In this document: piece by piece, positions 13,806 to 60,080 of the stretch
How positions within the stretch are numbered: the first letter of the stretch is position 1
How the letters are laid out: each line of letters starts with the position of its first letter
Assembly: GCA_018057825.1 (NCBI GenBank)
Contig: JAGPCY010000040.1
Coordinates: 1 to 64,000, forward strand
Reading direction: 5' to 3'
From: Kofleriaceae bacterium
Lineage (GTDB): Bacteria; Myxococcota_A; Polyangia; Haliangiales; Haliangiaceae
Length of the DNA stretch: 64,000 nucleotides
Program-made: the position numbers and the translations under genes
The notes under the pieces: model-generated
What the model was told of the DNA's origin: nothing
The model's input: the letters and a program-made list of their open reading frames with translations, nothing else
Database searches by the model: none

Positions 13806-13948
13806 GCCGAGGCCGAGGCCGAAGCCGAGACCTAGTCCGAGTCCGAGTCCGAGTCCGAGTCCGAGACCGAGTCCGAGTCCGAGTCCGAGTCCGAGTCCGA
13901 GTCCGAGTCCGAGTCCGAGTCCGAGTCCGAGTCCGAGTCCGAGTCCGA
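13806..13948. repeat. hexanucleotide tract (CCGAGT/G/A)n, tract 1
   Basis: About 23 near-perfect copies of CCGAGN, mostly CCGAGT, starting at the ribD stop codon. Read on the minus strand it encodes dipeptide repeats (Asp-Ser or Arg-Thr). It separates ribD (plus) from the minus-strand tRNA-like region. Same family, in the opposite orientation, as tracts 2, 3 and 5. Confidence 0.95.
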
Positions 13949-13957
13949 TCGCGCGCG

Positions 13958-14022: not shown

Positions 14023-14032
14023 CATAAATAGT

Positions 14033-14065
14033 GAACCCCGAGGCTGTAGCCGAGCCTCGGGGTTC
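14033..14065. terminator. strong 13-bp hairpin, possible terminator of the tRNA-like transcript
   Basis: GAACCCCGAGGCT and AGCCTCGGGGTTC form a perfect 13-bp stem with loop GTAGCCG. It lies downstream (minus strand) of the permuted tRNA-like genes. No T-run follows in either direction, so it may be a processing barrier or part of the RNA rather than a classical intrinsic terminator. The palindrome CTGCGCAG occurs twice next to it (14069-14090). Confidence 0.5.
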
Positions 14066-14118
14066 GAACTGCGCAGAGTTCCCTGCGCAGGTGCCGGTTT
14101 CGCACGCCAACGACAGTT

Positions 14119-14279
14119 GCAGTCGCTCAGGTCTTCGTGCTCATGACTTTCCATTGGTCCAAGTCGCCAGGAGAGACACCGTCTCGGTCGGCGGCGGGCC
14201 TCGCGAGAGGTCCTGCCGACGCCAGACGTGGCGGCGACTGCCGGAGTCGAACCGGCATTCTTGAGCATGGGGCGACAGC
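14119..14279 (-). tRNA. circularly permuted tRNA-like gene Y (3' half upstream of 5' half)
   Basis: On the minus strand the order is: anticodon-stem 3' strand GCTCA (14266-14262), 5-nt variable loop AGAAT, T arm GCCGG-TTCGACT-CCGGC (14256-14240), acceptor 3' strand AGTCGCC (14239-14233), G73 and encoded CCA (to 14229). A 60-nt spacer follows, then acceptor 5' strand GGCGACT (14168-14162), TG at positions 8-9, a D arm with 3-bp stem GAC/GTC and GG in the loop (14159-14145), A26, and anticodon-stem 5' strand TGAGC (14143-14139). Rejoined, this is a complete class I cloverleaf with perfect 7-bp acceptor and 5-bp anticodon stems at exact spacing. A further 8-nt helix (GCGACTGC at 14126-14119 with GCTGTCGC at 14279-14272, one mismatch) would hold the open ends together. 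The anticodon is not resolved because the loop junction is unknown; no U33 is obvious. Confidence 0.55.
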
Positions 14280-14359
14280 GATCGAGATGGCGAGCTCGGC
14301 CTCGTGAGGTTGGGAGAGAGACTCAGTTTGCGTCAGCCTGACCAGACAGACCGCTCGCG

Positions 14360-14470
14360 CGGCCCGCGTCTACCAGTTTCGCCACGGGGGCAGGTTGCAC
14401 GGTGTGACCCGTCGGTGCTCCCGGGAGGACTCGAACCTCCACGCCTGGACGACTGCTCAGGGAGTTTGAA
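14360..14470 (-). tRNA. permuted tRNA-Leu-like gene X (3' half upstream of 5' half)
   Basis: On the minus strand a T arm GGAGG-TTCGAGT-CCTCC (14440-14424) is followed directly by acceptor 3' strand CGGGAGC and ACC (to 14414). After a 22-nt spacer come GCCCCCG (14391-14385), TG and GCGAAACTGGTAGACGC (14382-14366), which is the classical tRNA-Leu D arm. Acceptor pairing is 6 of 7 (one C-A mismatch). Upstream of the T arm a TTCAAAC loop followed by TCCCT would give a CAA (Leu) anticodon and a class II variable arm, but the 5' partner of the anticodon stem is not found after the D arm; AGGGA lies instead 18 nt before the loop. It has the same permuted order as Y, less completely resolved. Confidence 0.35.
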
Positions 14471-14586
14471 GCTGAGGCTCAGGTTGTCTCCCTCTCAGGA
14501 GCTGGATGGCCCTCCTTGGGCGGGACGATCGACGGGGTGGGGGCGCGCGGCGATCGCGGGTGAGGTTCGCGGCGTCAGGTCAGCCC

Positions 14587-15321
14587 TCACGGCGCGAACA
14601 GGTAGCTGAGGACCGCCTGGCCGATCTTCTGGTCCGGCGCCTCGATCGCGTTGGCCTGCTCGCGCGCGAACTTGACCGCGTTCGACAGCCGCTCGATGCG
14701 GGCCAGGAGCTGCTTCTTGCGCGGGGCGGGCAGGGCGCCAGAGTGCTTGACCGTGACCCACTGCCCGGCGATCACGTCCTCGGTGATGAGCTGGGTCTGG
14801 GCCGGGTGGTGTTCGGTGGCGTCGTACAGCACGATCGGTCGCTGCAGCTTCTTGGTCCGCTGCGTCGTCGACGGCTCGGTCCGGAACAGCCCGGTCGACG
14901 GATCGACCGACCAGTCGCTGCCGGGGTCGAGCTCGGCCATCTTGGCGACGAAGGTCGTCAGATCCGAGAGCTGCTTCTCGAGGAACAGGAGGTAGGTCGC
15001 GGGCGCGTCTTTGACCAGGACCCGGCCGTCGATCACGACGTCGGCCTTGGCCTGGCAGTTGGCCCAGTCCTTGGTCGCGGTGATGTCGAACAGCTCGGTC
15101 AAGATCGTCGCGACGCGGTCGAAGACCTCGGCCGCGTTGTGCTGGACCTTCTGCGACTCCGGCGGGTAGGTCTCGCCGTCCTCGTCGCGCGGCTGGTACG
15201 ACTTATGGAAGCCGTTCATGAGCGGCGGCTTCTGCGTCGCGTTGTGGAGCTCGGTGAACTCCGCGTACACGCGGGTCTTCAGGCCCTTCTCGATGGCCAG
15301 GATCTGGTTCAGTTTCGCCAT
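14587..15321 (-). CDS. conserved protein of unknown function (DUF7873-like)
   Basis: A 244-residue soluble protein. The ATG at 15321 is chosen because it begins a well-behaved sequence (MAKLNQILAIEKGLKTR) and the upstream frame only reads through dispersed repeats. It has a long helical N-terminal half with KSYQPRDEDGETYPPES and a C-terminal helical region. Similar proteins, annotated from memory as DUF7873, occur in actinobacteria, often near phage-tail-like genes, but I cannot confirm this. No signal peptide or membrane segment. It is transcribed toward the tRNA-like region. Confidence 0.65.
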   Translation of the reverse strand: MAKLNQILAIEKGLKTRVYAEFTELHNATQKPPLMNGFHKSYQPRDEDGETYPPESQKVQHNAAEVFDRVATILTELFDITATKDWANCQAKADVVIDGRVLVKDAPATYLLFLEKQLSDLTTFVAKMAELDPGSDWSVDPSTGLFRTEPSTTQRTKKLQRPIVLYDATEHHPAQTQLITEDVIAGQWVTVKHSGALPAPRKKQLLARIERLSNAVKFAREQANAIEAPDQKIGQAVLSYLFAP

Positions 15322-59979: not shown

Positions 59980-60008
59980 CGGCGTCGTCACCGACGCACG
60001 TGCACTCG

Positions 60009-60080
60009 TGGGCGCTGTAGGGATCGAACCTACGACTTTCACCGTGTGAAGGTGACACTCTTCCGCTGAGTTAAGCGCCC
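60009..60080 (-). tRNA. tRNA-Val (CAC)
   Basis: The minus strand folds as a standard cloverleaf: 7-bp acceptor GGGCGCT/AGCGCCC, D arm ACTC/GAGT, anticodon stem TCACC/GGTGA with loop TTCACAC (anticodon CAC), variable loop AAGTC and T arm GTAGG-TTCGATC-CCTAC, then A73. CCA is not encoded. The CAC anticodon reads GUG codons, in keeping with the high GC. Confidence 0.95.

Follow-up and report, generated by a model that had tools for sequence, protein, structure and literature searches.

A structured RNA of about 470 nt with two permuted tRNA-like domains beside DUF7873 genes of bacteria and phages

The permuted tRNA pieces at 14360-14470 of the window, the whole 64,000-nt stretch of Kofleriaceae DNA that was analysed, do not represent a broken tRNA gene but make up one of two tRNA-like domains in an RNA of about 470 nt, which is encoded beside a gene of the protein family DUF7873 (PF25283). 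Comparison among relatives makes it almost certain that both domains are tRNA cloverleaves in circular permutation, with loop-capped acceptor stems, within the overall structure listed below. The explanation that we favour, and consider fairly likely, is a non-coding RNA with two tandem permuted tRNA mimics, part of a ribonucleoprotein that would engage tRNA-binding proteins as a tether or decoy. The elements of the locus are as follows, in the 5' to 3' direction of the RNA.

14587-15321, minus strand: DUF7873 gene (PF25283), 244 aa, directly 5' of the RNA
14030-14502, minus strand: whole RNA, ends approximate; conserved block 3' of DUF7873, with the 3' end placed at the terminator
14487-14492, minus strand: GGGAGA, 5' strand of the helix closing domain A; pairs with TCTCCC 14312-14317, a pairing also visible in relatives
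14456-14485, minus strand: R1, hexamer-phased CTNAGN repeat, contains TTCAAAC; the repeat pattern recurs in all lineages
14445-14448, minus strand: CCAG, 3' strand of the domain A anticodon-stem equivalent; pairs with CTGG 14342-14345
14424-14440, minus strand: domain A T arm; covariance model (CM) match, covariation
14417-14423, minus strand: CGGGAGC, domain A acceptor 3' strand; CM match
14392-14416, minus strand: domain A acceptor-capping loop, 25 nt; starts ACC like a tRNA 3' end
14385-14391, minus strand: GCCCCCG, domain A acceptor 5' strand; 6/7 pairs
14366-14384, minus strand: domain A Leu-like D arm; Leu is the nearest isotype for most distinct domain A D arms (67/75)
14349-14364, minus strand: hairpin GGCCGC-GCGA-GCGGTC inserted after the domain A D arm, in the window's clade
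14342-14345, minus strand: CTGG, 5' strand of the domain A anticodon-stem equivalent; pairs with CCAG 14445-14448
14304-14334, minus strand: R2, second conserved repeat; includes TCTCCC 14312-14317, which closes domain A
14262-14267, minus strand: TGCTCA, domain B anticodon stem 3' strand; pairs with TGAGCA 14138-14143
14240-14256, minus strand: domain B T arm; CM match
14233-14239, minus strand: AGTCGCC, domain B acceptor 3' strand, then GCCA; 7/7 pairs with 14162-14168
14169-14232, minus strand: domain B acceptor-capping loop, 64 nt; 6-158 nt at other loci
14162-14168, minus strand: GGCGACT, domain B acceptor 5' strand; 7/7 pairs
14145-14161, minus strand: domain B D arm; CM match
14138-14143, minus strand: TGAGCA, domain B anticodon stem 5' strand; pairs with TGCTCA 14262-14267
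14092-14126, minus strand: conserved 3' segment, basal arm of domain B; pairs with the inter-domain region, helices B1-B3 covary
14033-14065, minus strand: terminator-like hairpin of 13 bp, followed by ACTATTTATG; other loci also have a GC-rich hairpin here

A sequence-only reading had described here a second tRNA-Leu-like gene, which could read CAA, with its 3' half ahead of its 5' half. The parts are there as described: the T arm (14440-14424), CGGGAGC (14423-14417) and ACC (14416-14414) are all present on the minus strand, and GCCCCCG (14391-14385) starts 22 nt past ACC and is followed by TG and the D arm TGGCGAAACTGGTAGACGC (14384-14366), which is indeed Leu-like. The acceptor of domain A has a single C-A mismatch, common to its genus, and 7/7 pairs form in many members that are more distant. 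The order with the 3' half first is real and is present twice at the locus. The proposed gene did not stand: the pieces are domain A of one structured RNA, with the acceptor ends joined by a loop, and no anticodon loop was conserved in either domain across the loci compared. TTCAAAC, which had been taken for the anticodon region, sits in the hexamer-repeat stretch 5' of domain A (14485-14456), and the reading is not conserved. The stem partner reported as missing after the D arm exists; it is CUGG (14345-14342), which lies past the inserted hairpin (14364-14349) and pairs with CCAG (14448-14445). Two neighbours with permuted order had also been claimed, which is correct for the order but not for two separate genes, since that first element corresponds to domain B of this RNA.

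The covariance search which that reading proposed was run with models built without the window sequence. They scored 56.8 bits (E 8e-14) for domain A, at 14451-14359, and 52.3 bits (E 4.5e-14) for domain B, at 14267-14138, far beyond chance as had been suspected, though the CM score alone is not specific because tandem ordinary tRNAs reach up to about 54-56 bits; since these also score, whole-genome CM scans are unusable as presence/absence tests. Neither ARAGORN nor RF00005 called a tRNA in native order at the RNA locus, no ordinary tRNA lies nearby, and the sole tRNA called in the window is a tRNA-Val at 60008-60080 (ARAGORN, Rfam). The single-sequence fold of the RNA had a z of -2.5 and recovered the domain B cloverleaf and the GGGAGA/TCTCCC helix closing domain A. 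A terminator scan alone was not above shuffle expectation. The repeats R1 (14456-14485) and R2 (14304-14334), both made of hexamer-phased CTNAGN, flank domain A on both sides and are possible protein-binding sites. In addition, CCGAGT hexamers stand in tandem at 13826-13950, between a ribD-like gene and the RNA.

Relatives of the locus carry the evidence for the structure. In each domain the T arm comes first, followed by the acceptor 3' strand, the capping loop, the acceptor 5' strand and the D arm, and the anticodon stem joins the domain to the remaining RNA. With 30 compact sequences per domain, the acceptor, T and D stems were 96-100% paired with many compensatory changes; these percentages lean upwards because the alignment loci were chosen by acceptor pairing, while the compensatory changes as such are not inflated. 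The covariation score was 0.681 in domain B (0.211 shuffled) and 0.489 in domain A (0.146 shuffled). For both domains 0 of 500 shuffles scored as high, and the score collapsed on sliding. Degenerate pseudogene pieces lacking conservation, which the sequence-only reading had considered as an alternative, are excluded by this covariation.

The anticodon stem played no part in locus selection. Stems of 5 bp at canonical tRNA spacing (one nt past the D stem, 4-5 nt ahead of the T stem) were found at 33 loci for domain A and 70 loci for domain B, where 5 and 7 were expected, respectively. When the halves were rejoined in tRNA order, ARAGORN called a tRNA in 243 of 254 domains; the figure was 71/254 when halves of different loci were combined and 12/127 in raw regions. 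Three further helices (B1-B3) connect the middle segment with the 3' part; they covary and make up the arm that bears domain B.

The RNA goes together with DUF7873. The product of 14587-15321 matched PF25283 over 242 of 244 positions (347 bits, E 7e-104; gathering score 27). A DUF7873 gene was present in 13 of 56 related genomes, and the same downstream block was present in 13/13. The order 3' of DUF7873 is CTNAGN hexamers, T arm, acceptor 3' strand, short loop, acceptor 5' strand, D arm, middle segment, second unit and GC-rich hairpin; other families and classes of the phylum show very different letters and the same pairing. A mechanical scan looked for a T arm, an acceptor 3' strand, a complementary 7-nt acceptor 5' strand and a D arm. 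Downstream of DUF7873 it detected one or more such units in 178 of 189 loci (some of them duplicate records) and at least two in 123, versus 11/189 upstream and 7/189 antisense; the permuted order is kept at this place. Eight of the 11 loci missed by the scan were recovered by the covariance models, one of them divergently oriented (L019 and L040, the same place). By scan or models, the RNA was not found at two Herpetosiphon loci and one other Chloroflexota locus out of the 189.

Scans of GTDB genomes (494 relatives seen by genome scan) and of IMG/VR contributed 80 loci each. Cellular DUF7873 loci belong to Myxococcota, Actinomycetota, Planctomycetota, Acidobacteriota, Chloroflexota and Armatimonadota; hosts of the RNA include the first four of these and Armatimonadota, and also many phages, where it often lies in tRNA arrays. 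DUF7873 was also found in 73 GenBank phage records, including Arthrobacter, Gordonia, Rhodococcus, Vibrio and Pseudanabaena phages, and in four records of the plasmid collection (Streptomyces, Nonomuraea). In several phages DUF7873 lies within a tRNA array, and the unannotated gap of ~500 nt behind it is the RNA. A quick DUF7873 tree mixed phage and cellular copies, and its well-supported branches force at least six switches between phage and cell.

Some loci deviate. L023 (G128:C198) has a divergent DUF7873 paralogue and one permuted unit, then immediately, by eye, an apparent ordinary tRNA gene. At L021 and L022 (G198, G114) the DUF7873 matches are short or degenerate, with partial coverage of the family. 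Clustering of neighbouring genes gave mostly overlapping-frame noise, and one 11-locus cluster is a possible transporter.

The protein itself was modelled with AF2 (pLDDT 93.7 for the window copy) and has long helices with beta strands. Foldseek gave no match to this model at E <= 0.001; the best VIA-align match, 3kdq (Z 8.8), was distrusted because of its rmsd of 7.9. DUF7873 is near neutral (pI 6.3; median 6.4). Because the protein is not basic and is without a clear fold match, RNA binding by DUF7873 is suggested by gene adjacency alone. No paper naming DUF7873 was found in the literature searched.

The tRNA likeness of domain A has a preferred isotype. Compared with 306 ordinary tRNAs of these loci, the 67 of 75 distinct D arms nearest to Leu stand against 11.5 expected, which is to be read as a statement about the group because the classifier is only about 40% accurate in leave-one-out. 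By this measure domain A is Leu-like across lineages. The D-arm comparison gave no fixed isotype preference for domain B. Among longer loops, A73 was found in 61/76 of domain A, which combines a Leu-type D arm with A73; position 73 in domain B is U or G. C74 was present in 57/76 (domain A) and 62/72 (domain B).

These features bear on the chief rival explanation, that the RNA is a relative of split tmRNA with two tRNA-like structures. RNase P and tRNase Z would open the acceptor loops and leave three base-paired RNA pieces with two chargeable 3' ends (Leu on domain A), for use in translation, ribosome rescue or peptide transfer. The permuted tmRNA is a precedent (PMC10085705): there, too, the 3' half of the tRNA domain is encoded ahead of the 5' half and joined by a spacer, and a long arm replaces the anticodon loop under the tRNA body. 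The loops here begin like a tRNA 3' end, with A73 mostly in domain A, U/G73 in domain B, and C74; none is shorter than 6 nt and the lengths vary freely, as expected of a discarded spacer, and domain A keeps Leu-type D arms across lineages. But the anticodon is missing, and CCA is encoded in only 38/113 loops of domain A and 42/113 of domain B, about a third, which makes a strict requirement for a charged end less likely. Unlike two-piece tmRNA, the RNA has two tRNA domains, normal D arms and a Leu-like rather than Ala-like domain A. No tmRNA or permuted-tmRNA model matched it. Inspection by eye found no conserved tag frame in the repeat region; a coding reading of the hexamer repeats (KLRLKLKL-like) was rejected because the frame shifts between loci (L011 and L013). 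We regard this explanation as unlikely.

In Rfam 15 no family reached its threshold on the RNA, and scans at gathering thresholds gave ordinary tRNAs and a single phage tmRNA, nothing else. Among known RNAs the tRNA mimic of Y RNAs comes closest in kind, because YrlA (RF02553) matches both domains weakly but end to end. In permissive mode the scores were 24-37 bits (best 37.1), with the gathering score at 69, and the matches include cases of both domains in one RNA; in the window there was no RF02553 match up to E 5. YrlA RNAs have 90-150 nt, with an Rsr-bound basal stem and a tRNA-like domain with D, T and acceptor arms (PMC8394870). The RNA here likewise carries such arms on a basal stem.

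It could therefore be a true Y RNA of the YrlA family, with its partner Rsr (Ro60) encoded elsewhere and DUF7873 a mere neighbour. The end-to-end matches and the shared architecture speak for it, yet the scores are far from the gathering score, and ordinary T-arm/D-arm neighbours also get about 26 bits with YrlA. Where YrlA has one domain in 90-150 nt, this RNA has two in tandem in about 470 nt; the acceptor, D, T and anticodon stems are all kept, and the partner gene is DUF7873, not Rsr, an adjacency which holds across phyla and phages. This makes a Y RNA in the strict sense improbable. The tRNA-like module thus belongs to a known kind, and its double form with DUF7873 is new; our literature searches did not find a description of the RNA, and those on permuted or tRNA-like phage RNAs gave known cases only. 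GOLLD and ROOL, the large ornate RNAs, are also large, structured and present in bacteria and phages, but neither has an Rfam match here, and the tRNA-like domains and the DUF7873 link distinguish this RNA from them.

Genome scans also met single permuted units elsewhere. Four genomes of the same family (L240, L241, L242 and L243 in G028, G009, G019 and G015) have arrays of such units flanked by CCCTACACGCA and CACTCGG motifs, which are Y-RNA-like; the arrays L240 and L242 precede an uncharacterised protein (..PESQMGPAERLLDVV..) without a Pfam match. Single units also lie upstream of a Band-7/SPFH-like gene at L248 (G128:C38) and L251 (G028:C58), with a Band_7 match shown for L248. The arrays beside other proteins look like Y RNAs or their kin. 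In the window's genome, another capped tRNA-like unit (L252, C28:25563-25631) scored 37.8 bits with YrlA, below threshold.

As in algae and archaea, permuted tRNA genes could mature by circularisation and cleavage, here into tRNA-Leu and a second tRNA. They share with this RNA the 3' half ahead of the 5' half, and full cloverleaf pairing is present; but there is no conserved anticodon loop to restore, extra conserved helices and repeats lie between the halves, and the canonical tRNAs are present. The genome carries tRNA-Leu with anticodons CAG, GAG, TAG, CAA and TAA outside the RNA locus. The sequence-only reading had asked whether Leu-CAA is missing elsewhere; an ordinary tRNA-Leu(CAA) is located on contig C58 and another in the 27-gene tRNA array of contig C80 (L229), which includes further Leu genes. 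We consider this origin very improbable. The C80 array also contains 75-nt tRNA-Leu genes without a long variable arm.

An ordinary-order class II tRNA at 14502-14417, degenerate or suppressor-like, can be practically dismissed: GCTCCTG (14502-14496) pairs 7/7 with CGGGAGC (one G-U) and there is a weak tRNA-Sec match (19.2 bits, E 2.1), but a tRNA-like D arm is lacking and it is the permuted partner that is conserved; in relatives the 5' strand is not maintained as a partner and has the sequence TCCCG, which can pair with GGGAG in a small hairpin.

So we return to the tether or decoy explanation. Both domains would fold as L-shaped tRNA bodies without a usable anticodon, and the conserved adjacency suggests that the RNA and DUF7873 quite probably assemble into a single ribonucleoprotein. 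By analogy with YrlA, which is modified by TruB and DusA and tied to PNPase (PMC8394870) and for which competition with an anticodon nuclease has been proposed as a possibility (PMC7790460), this particle may engage proteins that recognise the tRNA elbow or acceptor; the tether or decoy role taken by itself is tentative. Candidate targets would be tRNA-modifying or tRNA-processing enzymes and tRNA nucleases, and possibly LeuRS for domain A. That phages carry the RNA in their tRNA arrays is consistent with a function in safeguarding translation during attacks on tRNAs. Beyond this, it is an evenly balanced question whether DUF7873 and the two permuted tRNA bodies represent a widespread, undescribed class of bacterial and phage ribonucleoproteins that would act through two tRNA-shaped ends at once, for example as an un-cleavable tRNA decoy or as a charged-end pair serving one enzyme.

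It means that scattered "permuted tRNA pieces" can be ordered domains of non-coding RNAs which tRNA finders miss. Mimics of tRNA show what machinery of the cell recognises the shape of tRNAs. Here many soil bacteria, and phages within their tRNA arrays, carry a conserved RNA that has two mimics, of which one has stayed Leu-like. Together with DUF7873 it may explain a protein family of unknown function, and it bears on how phages guard translation.
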